Shown here one piece after another: positions 20,801-60,690 of a DNA stretch of 64,000 nt; position 1 is the first letter of the stretch; each line of letters starts with the position of its first letter. Source of the stretch: Lepisosteus oculatus. Lineage: Eukaryota > Chordata > Actinopteri > Semionotiformes > Lepisosteidae. The position numbers and the translations under genes were made by a program. Where the stretch lies: NCBI RefSeq assembly GCF_040954835.1, contig NC_090703.1, positions 15,513,444-15,577,443 on the forward strand, read 5' to 3'. Below the pieces are notes generated by a model. The model was not told the DNA's origin and made no database searches. It saw nothing but the letters and a program-made list of their open reading frames with translations.

Positions 20801-23800
20801 TCTTTTTTTAAATATGCTTTTAATTTTTTTTTATTGTATCCTACCAATGTCCACAGAAATAGCTCTTTTATTTAAAAATTAAAAGTATACAGTAGGAAAA
20901 TAAGCCATTTTTAAAAATAGTCCATCTGTTCACTCTGGCTCAAATCTGTATTGGCGTGGTCAGCTAGGCAAAATAACTTTTATTTCTACTAAACTTGTAA
21001 AGCATTATTTAAAAAAAATGAGTTTCATTATTTAATATGATCAGTTGTATATCTTTGTCTTGCCAAACAGAACAAGAAACTGCAAAATGGGCCTTTATCT
21101 TTGACAGTGTATTATAAACCCAATTATAAACCCATTTTTGTTCCTTAATATGTATACAACAGATGACTCAGCCCAAGAAAACACAAGGTTTGAACTTGGG
21201 ACTCAAAATTAAATGTCAAAAAAAGATTGTAGCTTGAGGTTCTGACTGAACAAAAAATTGATTTTTAAAGGATTTCCTGTCGTACTTCAGTATTTTGCCC
21301 TATGGCACACATTTCTCAGCCACTCAAACTGAAGTTTAAAGTACCGATTCATTTTCTCATTTCAAAGACATACAACACAACTTGTTTTTTTTTCTGTTTA
21401 AATGCATGAAATAATACATTTAAATAAGGTAATCAGATTAAGGATATCTGCACTTATTGAAATATTTCAGATCTTGCCAGGTAGTCCAACAAAATGTCAT
21501 ATAATCACCTGTGCCAACCAGGACAACTATTTCAATTAATTTCCTGACACAGACACGCTGGAAAAGGTAAGAAAGCTCAATGAAACTTTTATGATTTGCT
21601 TCTTTTGTTCTCCTAATGCTCAGCGAATGAAGGCTTGAGCATATCTTTGAACACAATGAACTGCTCCTTCCAGATAACATGATCCTTTTCTAAATAAAAT
21701 TATCAAATGGCTTCCCAGAATAGCATCATTTTTTCTGCATAACATTTGAGTGTGAAAGAGTCATTGTCAATAAAAGCACAAGTCCACCTTGATAAGGAAG
21801 TAATGCATCTTCATAGATGAGTTTTCAATAGAGTTTTACTAAGAGCACAGCGAGGTTCTAATGAGCAATTAAAAAGGTGAATAACAAGAGGGGGGATTTT
21901 GTGGAATTAAATAATAATATATAACAAATTTATTTAATTCCTGAAATATATTCCTGAATAGGTGCTGAATATAAAATAAGAGAATATTTAATAAATGAAC
22001 CAGAACAATCTTTCAGAAGATACTTCACACATGGACAGAGAATAATTCTAATTATTTCTTGCTATAAACATTTTCAACAAATTTAAAAATATAAATATAT
22101 GGCACATTTTACTGAACCAAGGCCCAGACAAAATGTTCCTTGCAGCTGACATTCAGAAAGTAGTATTATCTCATCTTGACACTACATCAGCACATGCTGC
22201 CTTAGAGTCTTCAATCCTTGATTAAGAATTCTACACAGGTTCTCAACATTCCTGAAACAGTTCCTAACTGGCCTCCAGTCTCAAAAATAGTGTAAAGTCC
22301 TGGGTTCGGTCTAGGGTTTTAGGCATTCATGTGTAGGAAAACAGAGTTTTCACTGGTCGATTATCAAACTTTATTGATAAAAAAAAACAACAAAACTAGC
22401 AGACCAAGCAAGAAGAAGAAAAAGAATAACGGACACAGCGTGAGCCTGCATTCTCTCCTCAACCGTCCACACCACACTTTTCCCTGGGTCTGAGATTAAA
22501 TAAAACTTCACTCACACCAAACTAAATACCACACACAAAACACTGAACACGTTAACCCAAATATGTCTCACAATAGCAATGAGTCAGTGCCAATGAAAGG
22601 GTGAAATAAAAAAAGATTGTTTTGTTCTAATGATTCTTTCCGACACCTTAAAACCCTGGTATTTTCCCATCCAAAGGCCAGGACTCTACTCTCAGTATGT
22701 CCACTGCACAAGGAAATGTCAACAGCGCCCCCCTGCAGTGTTCTGACAGACACACTGGTGTGTCAACACAATCCACCAGGGATGGAGCTGCTTGTCTAAC
22801 ATTCATTTAAGCAACTGTGGAGTTTTACTGGACATTTCTAAACACCAATAAAAAATGTATTTCAATATTTGTCTATGTAAAAGAGTCTCCTATTCATCTT
22901 CCACTTTATTGAGGTCAGATTACACGAAGACTTTCACATGAGCCTGCACATTATTTACATCCTACATTGGAAAAGGCACGATGAGAACCCAAACCAATCA
23001 TAAAATGAGAACAGGAAGCTTTTTGGCTCTAGCTTACTAACATTTAATATCTTGAGTTAAGAATGTCAAGGAGGTTGTCCCCTTTTTTTGTTGTCATTTA
23101 CCTACTGTCGTCAAACTGAGATCACCTTTAAGACAGTGACAAAGATATCTGTAGGACAATATTTCTTCCAGGATGTTATCTGTATGACCCCTCTATGCCA
23201 AGAGTCTCAGCCGATCGATAACATACCAACAATGCTTATCTCTAAAGAAATCTGTAGGTTTTTTAGCCGAGTATAAATTGTGCTGGTTATACATTGAAGA
23301 AAAACATGCAGCCTGCATAACCTGTGTATCATGAGCATTAATAAAAAACAAATTATTGTAGAACAAAATCCCAAAAGAGCAATGATATCAGAAATGAAAT
23401 TCATAACTTATTGCTTTGTGTACAAAATATATTTTTTAATCTTGTTCTATAAATCCAATAAAAAATAAACATTTTTGGGATTTAGCTTCTTGCATAACTA
23501 TCTCTATATGATATGTACACAGGTACCTGAACAAATATTGAGTGTTTCTGTCATACAACTAATTAGAAAATTATTTAGATGTAAGCAGTTTTTTTTTCTC
23601 AAACATCAAGTTTCCATTAATATGTCAAAATAACGATTAACTGAACTGACCTAAAAACACTCTTTTTGGACTTAATTTTCCAGGAACTAAAATAGGATCA
23701 CAAAGCATTGCTTCCAGAAGATTTGCTATAAACATATTCCAAAAATATACTGATGGAAAAAAGAAACATACAGTAACATCTCCTCCACACTCTGCCCATC

Positions 23801-26800
23801 CTGTCTGCGTGGAACAGGCTGAAGAGTGACTCGTCCGTGAAGAGGACCTGATGCCAGTGCTGACGAGTCCATCGCAGCCCCAGTCTGGCCCAAGCCAGTC
23901 TGGTGTGACATCTAGGAGGTGTGTGCAGAGGCCCTCTGAGAGCTCGCCTTGCTCTAAGACCAGCAGAATGGAGCCTCACTGTCCTGTCACTGATGCGGGC
24001 ATTGTGTCTGCCTGCAGTTTCAGCAGCAGTATGGGTGGCAGATCTGAAACAATCTCTCAGATGGACCAGTCTAATGTGTCAGTCCTGCTCTGGTGTGGTC
24101 ACTCGAGGGTGACCAGATCTTGGACAGTCATCTGTCTTGCTGGTCTGCTGAAACTTGAACTTGAACTTTATTGCCATATGTAACCGGTACTGGTACAATG
24201 GAATTCATACTTACAGAAAGTCTCTCGATTGTAAAACAAGTGTAAAAAACAAAACAAAGTGCAAACAGTGCATCAAGACAATATACAAATAAACAGTAGA
24301 CAATGTACAAGTAAACATGTAGACAGTTTGAATGTAAACAATACAGACGCGTAAACAATGACTGGAGATGTGCAAAAGATAAGAAATCATAATGAGGTAG
24401 ATGGTGATGGTGTAGGTGTGGTCCGGGGGGGATGGCTAAATGTGTTCGCCAGTATCACTGCTTGTGGATAGAAGCTATTGAAGAATCTAGTGGTGTCCAT
24501 ATGCTCTTATATCTCTTGCCTGAGGGCAGTGAGGTGAAGAGCTCATGCCCGGGGTGGTGACTATCCTCTGTGATGGCCAGAATTCTACCACGGCAGCGGT
24601 CCTCATAGAGCTGTTTAATCTTGGTGAGACCGCAGCCGATGATCTTCTGGGCCGTATTGACCATTCTCTGCAGTGCCTTTCTTTGTCGCAAAGAGGTGTT
24701 GCCATACCACACAGTGATCCCGTTGGTGAGGACGCTCTCGATGGTGCAGCGGTAGAAGTTCACCAACAAATGTAATGGCATCCCCCATCGCTTGAGGCAC
24801 CTCAAGAAATAAAGGCGCTGCTGAGCCTTCTTCATGATAGAGTCAGTGTTCAAAGTCCAGGTTAGATCTACTTCTCTGCAGATGGGACACAGTGGAGCGG
24901 CTCACTCCATAGTGGTTGGCAATGCTGGCACATGACATGCCTGTCTGCAGCACACCAATGGCCCTCTCCCTTGCTTCTGGTGACATTCAAGGCATCATGG
25001 AATGCACAGAAAACTGACTAACTGTGGCCTTTTTCTTGCAGTGACCTAAACTTCGAATTAAGGCCTTTTTAAAGGTGACCTGATCAGGCATTCTTCCACC
25101 TTGACCTTGTTGGGTAAAAGTGCACCTAACAATCTTTCGTGTGATTGGCAAGTTGCAATGCCTCACTGCACAAGCTGTTTTGCTGGTCAGAGGGTTTAAA
25201 ACAAATTGACAACTTTGTGAAAGTACATAAGCTACAGTATAACTACTGTATAGTATTCACGTTCCAGAAAGTGTTGCGTTTCTTTTTTCCCCATCAGTAT
25301 ATATTCAGCACAAGCCAACAATGGCAGAAGCCATTCAGTTCAAGAGGGAAGGGTGCATACAGAAAATCCTAATATTTGCTCAAAATAACTTCTGAGCAAA
25401 TACTGCAAGGAATGAAGGTTACAGTCGGCCATCAGCATTGGCAATAATAATTATAACACTGATAAACTTTAAAGGTAGAGAGATGCACACTTCCCCACAT
25501 AAATGCCACATGATCTCAGTGGACACCCAGTGATCAATAAGGTGCAAAAGGAATCCCAATGTCAATTAAGCTATAATAAAATTGTGCCAAATTGTCAACT
25601 TCATGTCTCTTTGAAAGATACATCAGCTAACCTTTGCATTTTTTTTCTTGTTTCAGTTTGGCTCTATGAACTTATTAAACAATGTCACTTTACAGCAGGT
25701 TGAGAGCGTAGACTTTATATTTATTTCTATTAAAAAGCAATACAGTTGAGCAATTCCAAACAAACACAGAATGTTGTTTAATTTTGAATTATTATTTTTT
25801 ATATAATTTAAAAAATACATAATACAAAAAAGGATATACCTAAGTTATACAGAGGAAGAAAACAAAGATTATGTTTAAAAACGACATAAACAAATGTACA
25901 ATCCATGTTCAATGTGTCCAGTGTGTCACTTCCTCTCTTGACTGAAAAGTAGAGAACGTCATTTACTTACATTAAGCATCTAGGACCGGTAAACATGAAC
26001 ACCTTGCTTATATTGCTGCCCTGGAGTCTGTCCCAAGAAGATCAATCAGCTACAGTATATTCCTGGGTTTAAAGGAACATCCTACACTGACCATTTTAAT
26101 GAAAACCCTTCATAGTTTCGTTCAAATATTCACAAATCTTCAAAGAGATTGACAAAGTCAGCCAAACATCTGTCTTCAGAATAAACAAAAAACACAAACC
26201 AGGGAACATACAACAAAACTATGTGAAAGTGCATTTAAAACTCAGAACATACAGTAAGGCAGTTTTTTATACACAAAGGGATGTGGGGGTCTGAAATGAG
26301 CTTCCCAGCCATATCGTTGAAGATGACACCCTGGCTTCTTTCAAGATACAGCTGGATGAAATCCTCAGATCACTTAGCTACTAACTACTAAATAAGCCAG
26401 GTGGACTGAGTGTTCTCCTCTTGACTGTAACTGTTCCTATTTCTGTTCTGTCCAGGCTTTTCTGCATTCATTTACAGATTGCTGAAGCAGGCCTTGGTTG
26501 TTTTTTTCCCTTGTTCTCGTGTTCATTTTACTCATGTCATCTTGAAAGAACAGCTACTTGCATATATTCTTAATCTATTAATTTTAACTCACTTCAAACC
26601 CAAAACACTGAGCGCCTGTATTAATTCACATGACTTGAGCTCAATAGTTTGTCAAACCACAGAATGATACCAGTCAGTCTATGATATTGTTTACCTTATC
26701 TCCAATGTATTTAAAACAAAATTAAACATGTGTAATACCCAACTGGGCAACTGATGTAAATCTTAGACTGTTGCACTTTCACTGTGCATCAGCATGTTTC

Positions 26801-39200: not shown

Positions 39201-42200
39201 CTTTGACAAAAAGCTGGTTTATTAAGACATATTATTTTATAGTGATTAACTGTTCTCGCCTGTCTAATAATATCCTACAGTGTGTACTGTATGTAAATTT
39301 GAACGTGCACTTAATTATTGTGTTATATAGATGTTTTAAAGTTGTACTTTTTAGCTGCTTTTATACAGGGTTTCGCTGTCTGCTTTATATTATAATGGTA
39401 TTATTAAGGGTATATGTGATCATAGAAAATTAATTGCAAAAAGACAAAAAAATTAAGATGTCATCCTAGCCAGTACTACACATGACCAGAATGAAGAGAA
39501 TTAAGTGCATTATCAGCATAGAATGATAAATGTTGTGTATAATCGTAAATTACATAATCGTTTTTTGCAAATATCCCTGTCTAAAGTTTTGTGAAGATAC
39601 AGCATTTATTCAACAGTATTATCAATCATTTCTCATCACAGTAATTCACGGTTAATTCTTGGGATTGTGAATCTATAGTTTGTCAGCAGTAAAAATTAAA
39701 AAAAAATCCTTCATTTAGCAGGCTATCCATATTTTTAGAATTTCAAAAACTAAAAATTATCTTGGATTATGTTTTATATATATTCTCAAATGTATCCTTA
39801 GACTATATAGTCCTGTGCTTGGTTTTATTAATTATCTTTCATTCAATACCAGGCTGACTCATGGGTTTCTATGGGAACTGTTATATAAAGTGAGCTCTGG
39901 TTCAATTGACATTGCTGTTGGAAGAGAATGACTCAGTCATTATTAGACCCAAATTGCATTCAGTCAGACAGTTTTTTTTAAAACAATCTTTGCTTGACTT
40001 TTCAAACATAAAGAAATCACCTGATTTCACACATGAGGAAAAATTGATTTTAAACTTTGAACTTTTTAAAAACTTTTAAGATTCAAGAAACTTGAATCCT
40101 AAGATTCAGCTGCTCAGTTCTGATAGAAATCTGTAGTTTTAAAGGTAGATAAAAATCCTCAATGAGGTACAAAAGTAACTGAATTAATGCAATCCTTTTA
40201 TTGTATCTAAAAGACAAATATGCATTCATATTACAGATTATGCTAAATAGTTATAGATAAAAAGTATGTGCTTTAAGTTCTTAAGAATCCCATTCAAGTT
40301 CATTTCAGAACCAGTAATGGTTACATGACAAAAAAAGTTACTGTAAAATGCTATTCCGAACATGACAGCCTTGATTACAGCGACTAGTGCCCTTAATGTG
40401 TTAAATCGCTGCTTAAGAAAAATACAAATGACTGGTAATTCTCTGAAACATTGTTTGCATGAACTATAAACAGTTCTTTGTGATGTCTCTGCGAGTTGGC
40501 ATTAATTTATTTCATTTATACCGAGGGTTTTTTGGGAATATAAAGTATCGATCCATCTGCAAATGAGTCAGTGGAAAATTGCCCTTATGACATGCATGGG
40601 CAATGAATTGCCTTGGTACTGCATGCCTACACGCTTGTCCTGTTCCCAAGTGATTTGGTACATGCTGACATGAACTTTTTTACAGTTAAATGCCTCAGTG
40701 TGAATTTAGTCATTCGGATTTAACATTGAACAAGAAAGTAAAAATACTACTGTCTGTGCCACCAGTGCATACTTCTTGTATGAGGAATTTGACAGTGGGT
40801 GTTGTTCGCTGACACGTTTTAGGATGCAGTGCTTTGCAAAAGTATCTCCTTCCTTCGTAATTGTAATGAATCATTAATTTTTTTTAAATTAATATTTTTC
40901 ATTCAGATTTGATAGCTCCAACTGAACACTTTTATTGCAAAACCGGAATTTGTTGCACACGTTTTGCAATTGCTGTATACATATAGACGTTTAATATATA
41001 TACATACAGTACACATATGTACATATTTTGTGTTCAGTGCTGTTTGATAATGATCAGACTTTTTTCAGATGGAATAACAGGAAGCAGTCAATGTTCTGTT
41101 ACCGTGCAGTCCAACTTCTGCGGTGGCTTTCAATAAACTAAAGGCTAAACACGACCTGTTGCATCTGCACTGGAGAAAGGGTTTTTGTAGTAAGAGTTAC
41201 AGCTTATTGTAAATATCATCTTAAACCCTCATTTCTACAGTGATCGAAACTAATTTGTGCAAGCGGGGGTCTATTTAAATTCTTGTTCCCCCAAAACTAT
41301 AGCTCATAACCAAGGCTACATGCACCTCGATTGTCCTTTTGTCTTAGAACACTAGTATAATCTTTTTGGTACTTAGTTTGTGCTACTAAATGTTTCCAGT
41401 GCAACCCCACATCCTTATGTATATTTGTCTATTATTTTAATTCTTTTTTTACTTAGCATTGATACAAGGGTAATTAGAACTGTCTTATTATAGAGTTAAA
41501 AATACTCTAATTTTAGCTAGCATCCATGTCTTTCTAATATGATACATAAAGTATGATGCATAAAGAATATAAATACTTCGGTATTTATTTTAGTTTTTGT
41601 AAAAAATAATTTTATATTGTAACGCAACGGGGGCTCCGGCGGGCGCCCTTGCCGCATCAGGTCGGCCCCTGCACCGTCCGGGGCTCGAACCCGGGACTCC
41701 CGCGTCTCTCTGCAGCGACCTAGCCCCGTGAGCCAAAGAGAGATCTCTCTACAGCCCAGTAGCTGTGGTCGTGCTATCACAGGGAAGGGCGGTGACGTCA
41801 CCCGCTCTGGTACGCCGGCTCTTACACACTGCTTGTCGGCCGTAAGCGTTACACTCTCCCCCGCTTAAATCGCCGTCCCCGGCGAAGGGCTATCCCGCCC
41901 CGCTTCTGACACCAATGTAACGCAACGGGGGCTCCGGCGGGCGCCCTTGCCGCATCAGGTCGGCCCCTGCACCGTCCGGGGCTCGAACCCGGGACTCCCG
42001 CGTCTCTCTGCAGCGACCTAGCCCCGTGAGCCAAAGAGAGATCTCTCTTTGGCTCACGGGGCTTGGTCGCTGTAGAGAGACGCGGAAGTCCCGGGTTCGA
42101 GCCCCGGACGGTGCAGGGGCCGACCTAATGCGGCAAGGGCGCCCGCCTGAGCCCCCGTTGCGTTACAATATGTTATATATTATATAATAATTATTTATAT

Positions 42201-45200
42201 TCTGGTTTACATTGATGTAACCCATCATCAAGTTTCAAACATTTTGTTCAGACCTATTTTTCAAAATACCCCCAAGACTAGGGGAATAAGCAAGGCAACT
42301 ATCATCATTCATCACTGTTACTGTTATTGTAGTTACTGCATCTAAAAACCTCATGAAAAAGGAGGGTTAGCAGATCTTTTGCAGTTAACATTACATCTTA
42401 GGTCTGTTCATCCCTTCCCATCACAACTAAGAGCTTGATCGACTCCTTTTTCCAGCTTGTATAGTGATTAAAGATGTGGACTGAAATCCATCTGGAACAG
42501 ACTTGAAATTCCAGACTTATTACACTGCAGATTTAAATTGGACTTGAACACGAAGTGACAAAGTTGTAGCTCTTTTCAGTTCTGCCAGCTTGCCAGCTAG
42601 CCTTCTCTCATATTCCTTTATTGAATTACATCTGGTACAAACCGATATACTGTTGCTTATTTTCTCAGACCTACTTTACAGCGGGAGCAGCACTATGTAT
42701 ATCTGAAGAGAGGTTTACGTTACCTTTCAGATGCCTACGAGGTAAGTTATTGTCAATCCTGGAGGCAGATACAGAGCTCACTAATGACCTTCTGCGTTTA
42801 CTTAATGTCTGTAAATAGTATTCCAGCTTTCAAAAACTGCCCTTCTGTAACAAATCTCCCCACCTAGCCTTATTTTTAAATTTGAAGGGTAGGGTATCAT
42901 ATATGATCTAGTAAATCAAATAACTAAGTCTGCCTCCAGTTCAAATCAATTTAAGGATAATAATGCAACAGTTTTAATATATAATCATAACTGATAATCT
43001 ATTTTTAAACAATTTTCTTAATGCCTAAATATATATATTTTGATGGTCAGTATGATTTACCAATTTGCAAAGTAAATCTAACAACAGAAGTCATTTTGTT
43101 ATGCTGTCCTTTGCCCTTTGGAGCTGTTTCTGGAATTCACGAACACATGTTCAAGCTTTTGCGTTTGATTATACTGCGCAGTGTCTTGATGCCAGCCGTC
43201 CTTGGCTCTGCTACTGGATCCTGCATAGCCTTGAGCTCCTAGATGAAACTGTCCCAGCCTCCATCGCCTCAGAGTGAGTAGAGAGAGCAAAGTGGACTGC
43301 AGCTGTTACAGATGACTCATCTCTGGGTCTCGGACACAGGGCTGGCCAGGCACGATTTCACCTGAGATTTTTTTCATGCGTTGTCTTGTTTTTTACTCCT
43401 AAAAACACAAGAGTGAGAAGAAACTTCACACCTGATTCTCTTTGCCCCATGTTGTTCTGCCGTTGAAACCCAGATGACAGAGTTGAGATTGGGAAAATGT
43501 ACTTTCACCTACACCTCGGAAATGCAGATTAATCTGTAACTGTTTATTTATCCACAGATAGATTAGATACAATTTCTTATTTCTTTAAGGTACCCATCTT
43601 ATCTTAAAATTAAAACAGTCAATGATTTGAAATATTACAGTATTCAAATTATGTTCTCCATTTAACAGCTTTATTTGCTCAATTTCTTGATTTTGTAGGC
43701 TTGAAACGTTTTCAAGATAAAACATTAAATAAAACCAACAACTCACCCTTTATAATGCTGTCTTCACTTAGTGGCAATCTTTTCTTCGGCAGTAAACTGG
43801 ACTGAGTTATAAAGAGGACAGCATACAGAAAGGAAGGTATAGAATGGTTTAGCAAGACCATTCTAAAACTTTCCCCAAACTTTAACAAACAATAACGAAC
43901 GAGAACTGTAACTTATTATGTCACACCAATTTACCTTTCATTTTCTGGGATCACTTTTTTTCTTTTTCATTTTAACAATGAACACAAGCCCACATATTCA
44001 TAGTAATACTTTTGATATATTACTTAACCGTAAGAATCAGAAATGTATGGCATAAACTATACAGTATCATAATAACATATTTTTAAGCATCTAAAATATT
44101 GTGATATGCATCTCCAGTGTACAGCCCACTCCTACTGCATATTTTCACAATGTTATTGTAGCTGTATGTATTCTATACCTGACGTGAACACAAATATAGA
44201 GGCTTGCAGCTGGTGTTTTAGCTGTGCAGTGCACTGAATATTCCTTCCTTGTCTTCTAGTGTCTGTAAATTCCTAGCAAAGTGTCAGAGTCCCACGGGGG
44301 GCTTTGCAGGAGGGCCAGGTCAGCATGCCCACCTGGCACCTACATATGCTGCTGTCAATGCCCTCTGTATAATTGGCACAGAGGAGGCCTATAACGTCAT
44401 TGACAGGTAAGACCTGGCTGAAGTCTTCAGGAAAGTTTTTTTTTTTTGTAACTGAATGTGATTGGTGTAAATTGGAAGAAAAGTTTGCAGAATAAGAAAT
44501 TGCGCATGTAGTACTTGCACGTTAATCTTGAATATAAGTAAAGATAAGTATGATGTAAATACTGGCCACACTGATGGCACAGATGAAAAAGATACAGTAG
44601 ATGATATTATCCGCAAGGTTTCGGACATGAGCAATTACCACAGTCAGCTATGAGAGTAGAGAGTGGAGGTTTGACGTCCTGCAGGGTAGTACCTACTCTT
44701 ATCCTTATCCATTAGTCTTTCTGGAGCTCCTTCGTGAGTATGACATTCACGCAGTGTTCTTTTGAAGCACAGTTAAATGAATTTACCGTAAAATCCGAAC
44801 TGTTCCCAGCACTATTTTAGTTGGACTTTCAAGTCTGTGTAGTCTGCATTTGAGGGCTACAAATTGCTGTCTTCAAAGCTCTCCAGAGTTCTCAGGTGGC
44901 ATTCCTAGAAATACCGTATGTTAATGTTCCCCATTGAAACAGTTCTCGGGTAAAAAAAAATGAGGAGCATTAAACAAAAACAGATTAATAGAGCAAAAGT
45001 GACAAAAACTTTAGAAACAAATGAAGTGAGCGTAACTTATTAATGAAGTTCAAGTAACGATACTGGAATACTGGAATACTTTCGTTTCTTACCAGACAAA
45101 GACTGCTAGACTTCTTGTATTCAGTGAAGCAGCCTGACGGCTCTTTCATAATGCACGTGGGTGGAGAAGTGGATGTCAGGTACGTCCTGTTGCCTTGGTT

Positions 45201-48200
45201 TCTGTTTTCAGCAGACTGCCTTATCAGCAACAAACAGAGTTACATACCGTTTTCCCCTTTGGTAAAAACAACAGGAATCCGCTGCTTGTTCTGGCCAGCC
45301 CTTTTTTTTATTTGCAGTGTGTTTAAATGTGTTAAGAAGCATTAGTGATGAAAAACATTGAAGTCTTAATGCAGTTGGTAATTAATTTTTAAATTAAGAA
45401 TTCTAGCCCTAATAAGTTATTTTGTTCTCCCCCTTTTCTGTATGCTATGTGTATTTCTCTCTGTTCTGAGCCAAATCAGCTTTCCTTGAAGTTCTGAGCT
45501 AATGATTTTTGTGATGGACTGGCATCCTGAGGACGCTAGTCCAGGGGGTATCCTATCTCTAGCTCCTTTTTCTGCTCACCGTGATCCAGTAATAAAGGAT
45601 AATTTTATTTTATGCTAAATATTTGCTTTGTAAATTTTCATAACGTACCATGCATTTTAACCATACATATATTTTTCTGCATTGTTAATTATTGTATTGG
45701 GTTTGCATTATATTGGGTTGGCATACTGCACATAGATTAATCTGTGTAGCCTTTAAGCTTTTTTGTCTATATAGTTCTATTAATTGGCAATGGAAAGCTA
45801 AAGCTCTAAAAATGAATATGGGTAGGGCTTGTAAGCAAAAGTGTCCAGTAGCTGTCAGTTCCCTTACTTGATACAAGTGCAGGTCTCCTGATTAGGACCA
45901 GTCGCTAGCTGTCACAGCTTTCCCATCCACCCTGCCTGGTGCTCAAAACAGAATCGGCCATTGTCTTGACTGCTGTCAGCTGGCCTCGCTCAGATGCAGG
46001 AATTCATAGCGTATCTATAAATGCAATCACATTCTCTGAGTTTCTCCGAGTTCACAGTCTTCTGTTCGGAATATTCCCACTACTCTAAGATCACTTCCAC
46101 AGACAAATCAAATGAAATCCTTGCTTACTGAAAGCTTACTCCGAACTGGCAAAATTCCACCCACAGATCCTTACCCTCAGAGCCACTGCACCGTACCCAG
46201 AGATACTGCTGGCACGCAGAAATATACGTGGGGTTACTTGGGTGATTTTATGGTAGCCATTATATACCAACAGCCCCATTGCACATTAAATCAGGTGGAG
46301 ATTTGAGTAATTACTTTCCCAGTTGAATTAAAGTAGAACTGCTATGCTATTTTTACATTTCTGGGTTGAAATGAGTCCGCAATGATGAGTGCATTTCACA
46401 CTGTAATGAAACTACAAAGTACGTGATAATGTGTACAAGATACGATGTGCATCACAAAAGAGACAAAGTTGCGTAGCGCCATATTGCCTTTATTGTCTGC
46501 TGTTCAGAATGAGACAACTAAACTTTCAATGACGCAAAACCAGTTCTATTACATTGTAACCTGCTTTAGACCAAGCGACATTTTGCTACCATGTTAAAAG
46601 TAAATATTTTCATGAAACCAATACATACAAGATGATATGCTTTTTAGGTAGTTTTAAGTATTGCAAAAAAAAGATCAACCTGCCAACCAATTAAAATACA
46701 TTTATCATTATTAACTTTGTAGGAGACCATGCTTCTCATTTGCTTACAGTAACTAGTTAGCAGGGACGGGCGCTTTCACTTGACAGTTTGCACAAACTCA
46801 GATCTCACCCATGGCAAAACCAGCAGTTTCATGTCTGCCTGCAGCTACATGGCTACATTTTACACTTAATCTGAAATTTGTGGAATTTTGCAGTACCTAG
46901 GTTTCATAACCTGTCTGAGAAATTGGGACTGCAGTTCCCCTTGTAAGGAGGAAATGTAAGGAGTCCAGATTAAATATACCATAAAGTGGAATTGAGCAAG
47001 AGCACAGCACTGGTGTCAACAACCCTACTCATGAATGTTGTAGAATCTTTAATTGCCAAGTAGTCAATCTTGTGTTAACATCTCATCTGAAGGTTAGCAC
47101 CTCCTACAGCACAGAATGGTCCAGAGGCCACCTATTGGTCCAGCACCTGGATTTCCCCAAACGTCTCCCATCCCAGTACAAACCAGGCCCAGCCTTGTTT
47201 ACAAGATCTGAGATCTGGTGAGGTTAAGAGATGGTAATGCTGCTCTCTAAGTCTAAAAATAAATGTCATAAGTATGGCATGTCTTTGAGCAAGCTGAAAT
47301 GACTGCACTGGAAATCAACAGAAAGAGTGCAGATAAAGGGATGCTGAAAAGTAAAAGAAAAGAAGAGAAACTACTTCTCAGCTGTGAGGTTTTTCAGGTC
47401 AGATATCGGCAGTCAGGTGTGGGTCTGGTTAATAGGGGCCACAGTGTCAGTGAACTGTTTCTTGTATTTCAGAAGTGCATACTGTGCTGCATCAGTGGCT
47501 TCTCTAACTAACATCATCACACCTACGCTATTTGAAGGAACTCCAAACTGGATTACTAGGTAAGGGAATCTGAAATGCTTTTGAAAGCAATGACTAAAAC
47601 ATTTTGTGCTTCACTCCTGGCTAAACATTGCGTGAACAGTCCAGTTATTACTGCATTATTGCTTCTGGCTTGTGTGAATGCCTTGTGCTTTGCTATTCAT
47701 GTATTCATGTCATAGTTGTATAGCATTTTTAAAGCTGAGTCAAATTCCTCATTTTGAATAACTTTGGACGGAGTTATTCATCCTGTTTAATTTACCAAGA
47801 TAGTTTGGTCGGACTAATTAAGCCTATGCTCTGTTTTCTTGTTTCTGTCAGTTGTCAGAACTGGGAGGGGGGTATTGGAGGAGTACCGGGTCTGGAGGCC
47901 CATGGTGGATACACTTTCTGTGGATTGGCAGCCATGGCCATTTTTCAAAAGGAGCATATGCTAGACCTCAAATCCTTGTTAGTAAGTCTTGGCCTGCACA
48001 CTTTCAAAATATGTCTCTGTATACTAGATACAAACATCAAAGTGCATGACTTAAATGGAGGTATAAATGGTGCATGTAGAAGTGCATTTAAAACTGAGAA
48101 CAGGAGGCACTTCTTTACCCAAAGAGTTGTGGGTGTATGGAACAAGCTACCAGGGTGTGTTGTTGAAGCCGATTCTCTGGCTTTCTTCAAGAAACAGCTG

Positions 48201-51200
48201 AACAGGCTATTTCGGCTAAGTGGCCTTGTTTTTAACTGTTCTTATCTTAGTATATACGCTTGAAACTGCCATCCCTCCTACAATTAATCCATTATCTTTC
48301 ACCTTTAGTGTGAAACTACACCTTGAAATAGAATAGGTCTGTTGGGTGAAAAAGATTGTTTTTGAATTAATAATTACATCAAGAATTATGCTGCTTCCAG
48401 GTCTCAGAATAGTAACTTGTTTTGATGGGAAAAGACTGTAATATTCTGGAGCCTGTGATGGGTTTCCACTGCTCTGTGTATCATCTGATAAATACAGATT
48501 TGTTTGCATTACTTCTGTTTTAAAAAGTTCCCTTTTTTGAAGTTCCCTGGTTATGCAGTAGGAAATGCTGCAGTGAATGCAGTTGGGTCTCCTTTTTTGA
48601 TTTGTAATCTTAGAAGTACAATGATTGGATGGTACTTGAAGACCCATCATACCTGTGAATGCAACGGAAGGGTCACATAAAACCTAAGACCATACTGAAT
48701 GTTTCCCTATGTATCAAAATAAGATTAGCTTTTAAAACAGACCTTTACATGATGCCAATAATACATGCACTCAGAGCCTAGTTGTAGTGGTGTTTCATAA
48801 GAAGTTGGGCTTGATTAATTCTCCTGGTTCTCCTCTAAACACGTTATTCTAAGGAGGAACTTTATACATTTTCCTTAAATGATGCTTGAACGCACAACAA
48901 AATCAATTTGTTCTAATTCCAGTTTAACCCAGCAGAATTGATTTTTAAAACACTGAATTTAGATTGATTCCTGCAATTCTAAATATTGTGTGTTTGTTTC
49001 CCAGCATCATTTCAGAGCAAATGTTTCTTATAATATAGTGACATGAACTGGGTACAGTATTTTAAACCAGGTCAAACTATAGCAATTTTATTATGGTTTA
49101 ATAATTGATTATGTAACTAGAACAATGTGAATTCTTCTATTCTATGTGCTGTTTTTTTGGACTGTAGCGCTGGGTCACGAGCAGACAAATGCGTTTTGAG
49201 GGCGGATTCCAGGGCCGCTGTAACAAGCTTGTTGATGGCTGTTACTCATTTTGGCAAGCTGGGCTGCTCCCTCTTCTCCACAGATCTCTGTTCAAAGAAG
49301 GTATTAACATTTATCAGGACCTCAATCCATAATTGAGCTCAATATCGGGAATTTAACTCACATGTGTCTCTGTGGATAAATAGACACAGGGTAAACCATT
49401 TGTCCTTCATTGTTTCTGTGAGGTGGGCTCAGAAAGCCTTATCAATGAATTAGGCAAAATTGTTGACACCTTTTGAAGCTTATGTGTCACTCAAAAATCT
49501 AATTTGCAGTTGTGTGTGACACTGAATTTGTGTTACAAACTTAAGATTCAAATCTGGGTGAATCAGAGTTTTTTCGATTGGCCAATTGTGGTGGTGGGTA
49601 CAAACTGGGATTAAAAAGTCAAAAGTTTGGAATTGTGAAAATTCTGTTGCAGGAGACAAAGCACTGAGTATGACCAACTGGATGTTTGAGCAGCAGGCCC
49701 TACAGGAGTATATCCTGCTGTGCTGTCAGAACCCGAGCGGGGGGCTGCTGGATAAGCCGGGCAAGTGAGTATCGGCGAAACGTGCAGGGCTGCATAGTTG
49801 TAGAGTAGTAGTTGGTGAACTATGTGCACTTGTACTGAAACACATAAGGCTGTACAGCTGTAAATCAGTAGATGTTTAGCTTAGTAACAACTCTTTTAAA
49901 CTGCACTCTGTGTAGATGCTGGAAATGCAGATTTTTCTGAGTAATTTATAGGAAGGTTTTCACCATTGAAAATGTTATCTTTATGTCTGCTTACTAGGTT
50001 ATGCTGCTCAAATAAAAAAAGCAACCTTTAGCAGTGACACATATGTTCTTTTTAAATAGTCTGCAGTTTGATTTTTCTGAAACTTTTCAGTTCAAGGGTA
50101 CAGAACCATTTTCTTGGAAACGATAGTCCTTGCCTTTTAAGCATCGGAGCTTCTTCCTTAGAGAGGACACAGAAGCTCCCCTAGAGACTTGTAATCAATA
50201 CATTCAGACTGAATTGGAAGAATGTTGTGGATCAGGTTACAGATGTTCTCAGAGGGGCGTCAGCTGTCACAAAATTGTGTTGATGACAACATTGAAGAAA
50301 CGGTTAACAAGAACCAGACTGATCTTTGAAAGTAGTTGAAAGGCTAAATATCTAAACGGCTGTCTTGATTAAATAACCTTTTAGATCTTTTGGAATAATT
50401 TTCATATCTTAAATATTCATTTGAAATCTTTTTTCAACTTTTTATGCATTAATTGGCACACATGGAGAATTTGACTTGTCAGTGAAGGTCAGCTATCGTA
50501 TATTAAAGCAGTTTTTCTAAACTGGAAAAAATATAATGATGCCGCTCACAGAAATTGGGCCTTAGTGCTAGTTTTTATATAATCAGTGCTTTCACTCATT
50601 CTTTAAATGCTGTTTTCCTCAATGCTGAATCTATTCTAATTATCCTCCTTTACCTAGATCTAGAGACTTCTACCATACCTGCTACTGCCTAAGTGGTCTT
50701 TCTATAGCACAGCATTTTGGAAGCAGGGAAATTTACCATGAACTTATCCTAGGCAATGATGAAAACCGATTGGTAAGTTTCCTGGTAAATGTTTTTGAAG
50801 TGCACTCCACTAAATCTTTGCTTTTACACAGGAACAATTGTTCTGAAAAGCGTAGAAAAGAGGAGGTACTCTGTGAAATGTTGTGCTGTAAAGAGAGTTC
50901 TGTTGTTTAGCTACTAGCAACCAAACAAGCAGGATGGGCCAAATGGTCTGGCCAGTGAGGTCAGGACATATTCCCGGTATGAATGGAGAAGATTACCAAG
51001 GGACATTGCACACCATCCAGCAATGTCATCACACCACTGCTTTCCCAGAACTCATTATGAGGTTTTAACTCATATGTTACGCACAGTGTGAACTTTAAAG
51101 TGCTGCAGTAAATCTTTTTTGTGATGGAGCCCCTTTTCACCTGCTTGTGTACATGGTGAGTTCATAGTACACCACAGCCTTTGCATGGCAATACATCTTT

Positions 51201-55382: not shown

Positions 55383-58300
55383 CTGTGTGAAACAAAATCA
55401 AAAACGAGCAGCTTTCAGGAGATGTTTTCATAACAGCTCATTTGGAAGAATAGAGAATCAACTAGTTTACCTTTTACACCTTGTTCAAAGTAGACCGCAT
55501 GCAACAGTGACTTCATATAAGGAACTTGGTTCTAATACTGCTCATGTCACTGTATCGTGTATATCACTAATTTCATTTCTGTGTTTTTCTCACTTTTTAC
55601 CCAGCTCAACATAAAACAGGTTAAAAAATAGGTCTAGATTCCATTTAGGAAAGGTATTCATTGTTCTTTGAATACTGGGTGTTTTCTTCATCATTATAAC
55701 TTTTAAATACATTTGTGATTACACTAGATCTTCATTTTCTTTAAAAGAACAATGTTAGATGTCTCAATAAACTGGCAAAAATTGTTGGTAAAATGCACGT
55801 TAAATAAGATCTAGGTTTAGTGATCTGCATCACCTGTAAATGCGGATCAGCGGATTGATGAGGAAAATACAACAGATGGTCATGACATTAAAAGAAAAAA
55901 GCCAAAAGGCCCGTATAAAGGATGCCACTTAAAAAATTCAGCAGAGTAAACAAAGAATATTAATCAATCGAAATTACAAAAGAAACGTTTTAAAATCCAT
56001 GTCTTTCTGAAACCATACATTTGTTTCTTTTGCTGCTCTGCATTTTTTTTTATTTTTTAATATAGCAATGTATATGAAAAGAGAAAATGTGTGTTTCAAC
56101 ATCAGTCAACATCCAAGCTCGAGGGGGAAAATAAAACTGGCAAGGGAAGTTAGGTCGGTCACAGAGATCAACGCATCCTGCTACCTGCAATGCGCAGCAG
56201 CTCTGCACTCCCTCACCTTGTTGCTCCAGCAGAGCGTTTTGCCTCTTCAGGTCGTCGATGTCTTGCTGGTGTGTATGGTTTTTCCGTCTCATGTACTGGA
56301 TATACTCTGTGGCTTTGTCTAGGATTTGAGCTCGGGATGCCTGTTTGATAGATTGCTGTCAGCAACAAGTTATAAACTAAAACACACAACGCAGGGTTAT
56401 ATTTTCCTTAGCTCATTACTACAAAATAACTTATTTCATAGGCCACTCTTACAATAACTATAACATGTTTAGGACATTTAGACATTTCCCTCCTCTTAGA
56501 GACATGTGTAACAGTTCCGTTCAAGGAAATAACCAGCTTACTGCTGTTCAGGAGATAATTATATGTTACACCATTCTGAGCCTCTTTACCTAAGGTTGCA
56601 GTCTCAAATTAAGGAACAAAGTAGATTTCATATTCATTCTAGCTTTATGAAGCTGTGGTTTATCAGCAGAAAGACATGCCTTTTCACTCTTATCAGAACA
56701 ATTTATTTAAAAACAATGTTGCTGATTTTCAGCTAACTGCTGTCTTCAACAGAAGAAAAGGCTTTATGAATGAAATGTTCTGAAAGAAAATCCTAACAAA
56801 AGGGTAGTTAATGCTAGTTCTGGCACTCGGCCAGACAAAATCCAAAACAATTCAGGTTTAGTCACTACTGTACTGTATGAGATAAAAGGGCAAGTATCTT
56901 TAAAGACTGTCACTTTAAAGAACTTTAATCTGATTAACATTTTTAAATGTTTTTTCTACTGCTGCCCAGCATTTTTTAAAATACTTAATTGCAAGCCATG
57001 AACATATATAATGCATTTCATAATATAAAAAAATGGGACAGTCCAAATTAAAATACTCATTCATTACTTAAAACTATTTCCAAATATTTGTACAACTTTG
57101 TTAAATGTGAATCATGCAACTGTATTTATAAAATGACACATATAGTCCTTGTCCCATCTTACCTTTAAAAGTGGACCCATTGGTTGTAGCTGGCACAGTT
57201 TAGGTTAAGTGCCATCTAAATACCTCTGTCTTTAATCTGAAACTGGTTTCAATCTCGCACTCTGTTGTCAAAAGGAGAATTTTCTACAGTGCAAACTCAT
57301 TTTTAAACTGAGTTTGTCACACACTGTAACTCAAACTGATACACTGAAATAAAGAGTGTTAATATCATACAGCAGAACATAAATTCCATTAGAACATATT
57401 ATAAAACCATACATTTTCAAGATGTACTTTGTCAACTTAGATTGAAAAACAGGAATGTAAAACTGAATTCCTTGAAGCTTTCATTCATTCATCACCATTC
57501 CTCTTACTATTCAGCCTTCTACTTTTTCTTGATGGGTCTTAATCCAGCAGATAAACTCTGCTACCTGTAGTTCAGTCAGATAAATGTTTAAATATTGCCC
57601 TGGTCCATAGTCTTAAGTGTGCATACATGAAGAAACCAATGACAGTGTAGTGTAATATACCTTGAGACTCTTAATAGGAGTTCTCAAATTCCAAAGAGAC
57701 CCCTTAATAAGTTCAAAAACTGTAATAAAAATATGGTACGAGTATCTTTAATAATGTCTTATCTATTTTATGTGAGGAAATGGCAATGTCTAAGGCCTGT
57801 GAAAATGGTATTTTCTCCCTGGCAGGCTTTAACAACTTTAATAATGAAGTGAGCAATGCAGGGTTAGGAGGGTGTGAAACCACCATTTCAGTGGAAATTC
57901 CTTTATTGCCGTCTTTTTACAGTGAGCACAGCACAAATATACTGCTTCACTTGTTGAAAGGAAAAGGGTTAAAATTAAAAGAGCTACATACAGTAGCTAT
58001 GTTAGAAATGTCTCAATGTATGCATCACCTTGAATAAACAGTTATTTGTTTATTGCAACAATACAAGTGGTTAGATTAACCCAATAAGTCTTCCAATACT
58101 TGATTCTCTCATTTTTAGGTTGTGCAGCAAAACTAATGTGTTCCTAAGACCAGAACTCTGTTAAATGGTTAAATGATTTTTTCCCCCAAAGGTATAACAA
58201 TTCACTAAGCCTAACAATTCTAACTTCAACAGATATTAAATATTAATATTTAATTATATTAGAGGTTTTCAAGGCCCTCTTTAAACACCTGTCTAAAGGA

Positions 58301-58990
58301 GTGATATCAATGATAAGATAATGTTTTTATGTTTAACAGTCATATAGCGATTCACAGTTCTAGCTATTGCTGCACTCAACCACAAAGTTTAAAAACATTT
58401 AAGTAGTAATGACTGGTTACCAGAAAGTTACAAGTACCTTAAAGGTACACAAAGTTGGAAATTAATTTTACAAATCCAGGAATGTTTGCTAGTACCATTT
58501 TTGTGATGTAAAGTAAAAAAAAAAATCTAATTCCTGTGAGAGAACAAGAAGAATTTATAGATGGTCTTAAAGCACAAAACTTCCAATTCCTTAAAATCAA
58601 CCAAACAGAAATGTTACTAATGGAGGCAATGAAACCTTGTTGTTTTAATTGGGAACCAAATTTACAAAGGGATCAGCACGAACTGCCCTCTTCTTAATTG
58701 AAATGCTGTTATAGCTCTTCTTTTCCAGAAAGTGCACTACAGTTTTCAGGTGAACACAGCATGCTTTTCCTTTATAAAAATGGTGGTGGGGGCAGTAATC
58801 ATAAAAATGTGCTGTACTCACAAACATTCCTGGTTTTACAGTGTACAAAATAATGGATCAGTAGTCCTGCCACTGTACTAACCTTTTCCCCTTGCAAAGC
58901 AGGCACAGAGTCTCGTAAACTGTGAAAGCTGTCTTTGATGTGGTCCCTACGTTTGCGCTCCAGCGCATTATGGTGTGCCCGTTTGTCTGC
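55201..58990 (-). CDS. MAX: Protein max, bHLH-leucine zipper (partial: last 3 coding exons)
   Basis: Obligate dimer partner of MYC, MXD and MNT proteins, binding the E-box CACGTG in the nucleus. Exons on the minus strand are 58883-58990, 56217-56340 and 55201-55382, giving 137 residues in one frame. The basic region is [20 protein letters not shown] (with the His-Glu-Arg E-box contacts). Next come helix 1 and the loop ([16 protein letters not shown]), helix 2 and the start of the zipper ([37 protein letters not shown]), then the acidic Ser-rich tail and the basic end [11 protein letters not shown]. All junctions are GT-AG and in phase. The first exon(s), encoding MSDNDDIEVESD and the alternative 9-residue insert in human, were not found up to 64000 and probably lie beyond the window. 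Confidence 0.96.
55383..58882 (-). other. MAX: MAX introns between the three exons
   Basis: Introns 55383-56216 and 56341-58882. AT-rich. No repeat family or additional exon was recognised. Confidence 0.5.
56217..56340 (-). CDS. MAX: MAX exon with helix 2 and leucine zipper
   Basis: 124 nt, 41 residues plus one base, identical in reading to human [20 protein letters not shown] and onward. The donor is CAAG/GTGAGG. Confidence 0.97.
58883..58990 (-). CDS. MAX: MAX exon with basic region, helix 1 and loop
   Basis: 108 nt, phase 0 at both ends, 36 residues ADKRAHHN...LQGEK. The acceptor is TTTCAG/GCA and the donor AAG/GTTAGT. One change from human in this block is VPALQ for VPSLQ. Confidence 0.97.
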
Positions 58991-59239
58991 CTGAAATGAA
59001 AATGTTACATTTATTACAACCCTGTAAAATTAAAGAATTACTGAAGCCACAAAATGTGTCAAAGTACCTGGAGGGTTCCAGTTTGTGATAATGGATTTTG
59101 CTTTAATGGCCAATGGCCAATTACATAAAGCCTGCAAACAGATTTTCCTTCCAATACTCCTGCATGCATCAGACTCCACTTTGACGCATATCTGATCAGA
59201 TCAAATGAAATGATCAAAATTCTCCACAATTCTTTATTT

Positions 59240-60690
<1,451 letters not shown>

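Follow-up and report, generated by a model that had tools for sequence, protein, structure and literature searches.

The window, that is, the whole 64-kb stretch of DNA that was analysed, contains exons of several protein-coding genes. Two of the exons of FNTB (farnesyltransferase beta), at 45.1 and 47.8 kb, were identified by their match to solved structures of this protein, and the other six, placed solely by short motifs, are presumed to belong to the same gene. A second set of frames, on the opposite strand, presumably represents MAX. A Ras-family exon at 15.4 kb, which we take to be RAB15-like, and a glutathione peroxidase (GSHPx) exon at 2.8-3.2 kb are also present, and the gene order appears to resemble that of the vertebrate RAB15-GPX2-FNTB-MAX region.

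42676-50691, plus strand: FNTB exons at approximately 42.7, 43.2, 44.3, 45.1, 47.8, 49.2, 49.7, and 50.7 kb
56050-59029, minus strand: helix-loop-helix exon at 58.8-59.0 kb (Pfam HLH), and a second frame at 56.1-56.4 kb that is exon-like but has no Pfam match

The window also holds a Sleeping Beauty-type transposase remnant (PF25787 at 60167-60499, minus strand), perhaps extending from 59534; frame 59534-59965 looks related by eye and has no Pfam match. On the minus strand at 23698-24901 are a Tc3-like HTH fragment, whose 30.4 bits fall just short of the Pfam threshold (31.5), and a match to PF09004 that we take to be the end of a LINE reverse-transcriptase frame. The vertebrate-like genes and the Sleeping Beauty-type remnant make the fish origin assumed in an earlier, sequence-only reading plausible.

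A 550-bp element on the minus strand, at 41618-42167, precedes the first FNTB exon that was recognised (motif at 42676, plus strand) by approximately 0.5 kb. It thus probably occupies an early intron of FNTB, a vertebrate housekeeping gene whose N-terminal exon was not located, or lies a short way outside the gene on its upstream side. The features of the element are as follows.

41614-41617, no strand assigned: target-site duplication ATAT, left copy
41618-41853, minus strand: complete 3' LTR, 236 bp, TGTAACGC...GCGTTACA
41618-41750, minus strand: R-U5 of the 3' LTR, 133 bp, with a putative U3/R border
41681-41735, minus strand: box A to box B of the 3' LTR, a predicted Pol III-type internal promoter
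41737-41750, minus strand: natural, perfect 14-nt palindrome AGAGAGATCTCTCT (LTR positions 104-117), the proposed start of R and rearrangement pivot
41751-41853, minus strand: U3 of the 3' LTR, 103 bp, up to the putative U3/R border
41793-41800, minus strand: CRE-like perfect palindrome TGACGTCA in U3 of the 3' LTR (LTR position 54)
41854-41864, minus strand: polypurine-tract-like GCGGGGGAGAG, with one pyrimidine, recognised by eye directly before the 3' LTR
41854-41915, minus strand: internal region, 62 bp
41898-41915, minus strand: primer-binding-site-like stretch TTGGTGTCAGAAGCGGGG, judged by eye
41916-42167, minus strand: palindromic 5' LTR, 252 bp
41916-42048, minus strand: normal R-U5 of the 5' LTR, identical to 41618-41750, with box A to box B at 42033-41979
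42042-42167, plus strand: inverted R-U5 arm in the place of U3, with box A to box B at 42050-42104, facing outward
42168-42171, no strand assigned: target-site duplication ATAT, right copy

The sequence-only reading of this DNA had reported a 4-bp ATAT duplication, and ATAT does flank the element on both sides. ATAT is its own reverse complement and the flanks are very AT-rich; calculated from the local flank composition (400 to 50 bp), the chance of a 4-bp match is 0.6-2.2%, and the duplication is thus supported, although not overwhelmingly. On the minus strand, the palindromic LTR (42167-41916) is followed by TTGGTGTCAGAAGCGGGG, the purine-rich GCGGGGGAGAG, and TGTAACGCTTACGG...GCGTTACA (41853-41618). 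This is the order of 5' LTR, primer-binding site, polypurine tract, and 3' LTR, and the element therefore reads on the minus strand, which corrects the layout given in the sequence-only reading. The primer-binding-site-like stretch starts at 41915 and so touches the palindrome, as had been noted; it may correspond to the complement of a tRNA-Leu 3' end.

The left LTR had been described as only half length. On the plus strand of the window, TGTAACGC occurs solely at 41618 and 41916, and GCGTTACA at 41846, at 42160, and once elsewhere (35819). These 8-bp inverted termini are common to the four LTR ends, indicating that the left LTR is complete at 236 bp and has a 103-bp U3 of its own. The two LTRs have R-U5 in common (41618-41750 is an exact direct copy of 41916-42048, 133/133 bases, as previously reported), and U3 is not shared.

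The element has a GC content of 67%, compared with 37% for the window. The identity of the R-U5 copies and the CpG observed/expected ratio (0.98, versus 0.33 for the whole window) are as expected for a young insertion. Within the 64-kb window, no second copy of the element or its parts was found beyond matches of 11-15 bases, and the 103-bp U3 had no further match at E up to 1. Exact-pattern scans of viral, bacterial, and archaeal contigs returned zero copies, which says little because such collections are poor places to seek a vertebrate element and may lack records close to the window's genome. The element is overlapped by five open frames of 75 aa or more, none with a Pfam match above cut-off; the single weak match reached 12.4 bits (E = 0.09, cut-off 29.9).

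The claim of tRNA-like Pol III boxes holds for the boxes themselves. Box A TGGCTCACGGGG is followed by box B GGTTCGAGCCC at 44 bases in each R-U5 copy of both LTRs, and a 5-bp T-arm around a TTCGAGC loop is visible by eye. With consensus sequences for the two boxes and a permitted spacer of 25-60 bases, the joint pattern occurs three times in 64 kb, each time inside the element; when the window was shuffled 200 times with dinucleotides preserved, the mean was 0.005, and none of 5,000 shuffles of the LTR contained it. The resemblance does not extend to a whole tRNA: ARAGORN, also when applied to R-U5 alone, and Rfam at gathering level both returned no tRNA. At E up to 10, Rfam gave 17 matches, none to tRNA and all below gathering scores. 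Fifteen of these (microRNA precursors, VA RNA, TAR etc.) fall on the palindrome hairpin and were dismissed as structure-driven chance, and the other two (HOXB13-AS1 model), in the R-U5 copies, were likewise ascribed to chance. The one phage match (E = 4e-3), which covered 13% of the query and lies where neither annotation nor ARAGORN places a tRNA, was also ascribed to chance. Therefore, the boxes are best described as a promoter box pair and not a tRNA gene, of which at most the promoter part has been kept.

Across both LTRs and the internal part, the sense strand contains no TTTT, AATAAA, ATTAAA, or TATA. The first downstream TTTT begins at base 12 of the flank, and a Pol III transcript would thus have to end in flanking DNA. 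The CRE-like TGACGTCA in U3 is a candidate Pol II element that could possibly serve a Pol II start; the palindromic 5' LTR is without it because it is without U3. R-U5 RNA from the palindrome centre onward has an unremarkable predicted stability (z = 0.76; 157 of 200 shuffles fold equally well or better).

The 252-bp palindrome was also as described: it consists of 2 x 126 bases centred at 42041/42042, in which 121 of the 126 pairs match and five are mismatched. It is probably not, as had been supposed, the LTR type of the element; the palindromic LTR is the abnormal one of the two: an inverted R-U5 stands where U3 belongs. The 103 bases with which the normal LTR opens run up to GGGCTGT, and the 14-nt palindrome AGAGAGATCTCTCT comes next. 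The inverted arm pivots precisely on this palindrome, where the identity of the 133-bp direct copy stops too, and its outer end is the exact U5 terminus. A palindrome of this length is only moderately unusual, arising in 130 of 5,000 mononucleotide shuffles of the LTR. The distance from the palindrome centre to box A is 8 bases. In tRNA genes, Pol III starts approximately 10-20 bases before box A, and a start of that kind would fall within or at the edge of the 14-nt palindrome.

The inverted arm differs from both other R-U5 copies at the same five of 126 positions, none of which lies in box A or box B. If three equal copies had mutated equally, all five changes would fall in one given copy with a chance of 0.4%, or in any one copy with a chance of 1.2%. 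The confinement of the differences to the inverted arm suggests that it was probably different from the start, pointing to a different template.

The RNA of such elements spans from R of the 5' LTR to R of the 3' LTR (PMC10886601), and it is from the 3' end that plus-strand strong-stop DNA takes its U3 (PMC9278108); one passage of PMC1950507 has the two segment names exchanged, presumably by an error of phrasing. A new copy thus derives its U3 from the RNA 3' end and, as the 3' LTR is normal here, daughter copies should have normal LTRs. The palindromic U3 replacement would not be inherited, which implies that the palindrome arose during or after the last round.

The sequence-only reading knew of no named family with such a build. 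The Helenus group (Kojima 2024), as described in PMC10886601, fits it: these are TRIMs with tRNA-derived sequence in their LTRs, a primer-binding site, and a polypurine tract. They have lengths of 311-1,263 bp, and 4-bp duplications in animals. Vertebrate primers are tRNA-His, -Leu, or -Lys; the helpers are probably Gypsy elements, by that paper's inference, and Pol III activity lacks experimental proof according to the same source. Among fishes, LTR-11_DR has 5,575 LTRs in zebrafish and relatives in Ostariophysi, and closely related families occur in sterlet and paddlefish (PMC10886601). TRIMs are defined by a size below 1,000 bp, two LTRs, a primer-binding site, and a polypurine tract, and the present element is 550 bp long, with LTRs of 252 and 236 bp, an internal part of 62 bp, and a primer-binding-site-like start and purine tract recognised by eye. 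It is non-coding in that its five frames include no mobilisation protein recognised by Pfam. Within TGGCTCACGGGG, TGGCT fits the Helenus box A segment TRGCY and CGG fits YGG, and box B GGTTCGAGCCC agrees with GGTTC, while whole-tRNA models are unmatched; the ATAT duplication has the length that is expected of Helenus in animals.

We therefore lean, by a little more than an even chance for the whole of this reading, towards a Helenus-type element, assigned by build from the described features of a single copy, in which the palindromic 5' LTR was formed from the strong-stop DNA of a second co-packaged RNA. If Pol III starts at or near the 14-nt palindrome, the RNA would begin with that palindrome, and minus-strand strong-stop DNA would end in a self-complementary 14-nt tail. 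Where a particle carried two RNAs, the minus strand under synthesis would reach its own self-complementary end and could anneal to the like end of strong-stop DNA made from the second, slightly different RNA. Copying of this partner to its 5' end would yield the inverted R-U5 arm and leave a U5 terminus at each end of the cDNA; insertion by a Gypsy-type integrase could then generate the 4-bp duplication. The altered LTR keeps outward and inward Pol III boxes, but any daughter copy would regain a normal LTR. Complete copying of the strong-stop DNA would place the outer end at the U5 terminus, as is seen. With DNA parameters, the predicted duplex of two 30-base tails has a free energy of -16.5 kcal/mol, compared with -2.8 for one 40-base tail folding on itself. 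Related steps are on record elsewhere: HIV-1 strong-stop DNA can prime itself through a terminal hairpin (PMC4668388), co-packaged transcripts of Onsen recombine (PMC5668417), and proviruses with asymmetric LTRs have been attributed to reverse transcription (PMC9278108). Titles and abstract openings described no palindromic LTR from aberrant strand transfer, which does not establish its absence from print; the term 'palindromic LTR' itself occurs in work on two LTR-finding tools.

Several observations count against the strong-stop origin. A single copy is known, its 4-bp duplication lies in very AT-rich flanks, and no tRNA model matches; the sense strand has no TTTT terminator, the transcription start is placed by analogy, the 14-nt palindrome is only moderately unusual, and the R-U5 RNA stability is ordinary. 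Moreover, an identical structure would result from later gene conversion through the 14-nt palindrome and the 8-bp termini that the LTRs share. Such a change after insertion, in which DNA repair or replication replaced the U3 of a normal Helenus 5' LTR with the inverted R-U5 of another family member, with switches at the 14-nt palindrome and at the 8-bp terminus TGTAACGC, is unlikely, although it is the most probable of the rival origins. Both microhomologies are present, the flank duplication would be kept, and an arm taken from a different copy would account for the 5/126 differences. However, two precise switches would be needed, compared with one in the strong-stop model, which explains the outer end without a second switch.

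A junction of two elements, in which a Helenus copy and part of an oppositely oriented second copy were joined at the palindrome by deletion or recombination, appears improbable. Although the inverted arm looks like a distinct copy and tandem arrays are known for the zebrafish family LTR-11_DR (PMC10886601), this origin predicts no matching flank duplication, and the ATAT match would be left to chance at 0.6-2.2%. That the palindrome is instead the normal LTR of a distinct family is, if anything, slightly harder to credit. The outer termini are perfect and the primer-binding site adjoins the palindromic LTR, as such a family would have it. However, the palindrome, or half of it, would be looked for in both LTRs, and the 3' LTR is complete, is not palindromic as a whole, and has a different U3, which is normal and is preceded by a purine tract; under the established model, in which daughter U3 comes from the RNA 3' end, a palindromic 5' LTR would not be passed on. 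A separate family with the palindrome as its regular LTR was therefore rejected. Inverted duplications are a known type of assembly or sequencing artefact, but a fold-back artefact was rejected as very improbable here, because the end of the inverted arm coincides with the LTR terminus, ATAT and then unrelated sequence come next, and the two arms disagree at 5/126 positions, when a fold-back read should be near-identical and ignore LTR ends.

On the strong-stop reading, the palindromic 5' LTR probably preserves the outcome of a strand transfer that failed, in which two parental templates can be told apart by sequence. As a Helenus element the insertion is unremarkable, one more vertebrate (possibly fish) example of a group that was described in 2024; the palindromic 5' LTR is the unusual feature that remains, and for a TRIM whose promoter is of Pol III type, its pivot narrows the predicted start to a few bases. 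If the product recurs, LTR machinery can make fold-back elements and bidirectional Pol III promoters. A bolder extension, which we hold to be unlikely, is that, with R of this family probably beginning at the palindrome, its strong-stop DNAs dimerise tail to tail and that the machinery repeatedly inserts cDNAs with two U5 ends, giving both palindromic-LTR copies and free 252-bp U5-R/R-U5 fold-back elements with 4-bp duplications. If true, tail-to-tail dimers would allow reverse transcription to produce MITE-like inverted-repeat elements that have an outward Pol III promoter on either side.

In comparison with known systems, the element resembles Helenus as a short, non-coding LTR element with Pol III boxes in the LTR, a primer-binding site, a polypurine tract, and a 4-bp duplication. 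Its primer, if of the putative tRNA-Leu type, would be among those listed for vertebrate Helenus (PMC10886601), and the closest comparison by described build is with the fish families such as LTR-11_DR and its Ostariophysi relatives. Unlike Helenus as described, its 5' LTR is palindromic, with U3 replaced by inverted R-U5. The sequence-only reading had placed the element as a small TRIM analogous to Cassandra, and this agrees with the present findings in that both are TRIMs with a Pol III promoter in their LTRs (PMC10886601), although Cassandra is a plant element with a 5S rRNA promoter and the boxes here are tRNA-like. Finally, while the cases covered in the relevant passages of PMC1950507 and PMC9278108 are fused elements or deletions, and those passages mention no inverted or palindromic LTR, the complex LTR insertions of the former and the asymmetric HIV-1 LTRs of the latter, as template-switch products, share with the proposed history of this element an LTR abnormality that is ascribed to reverse transcription and was then integrated.
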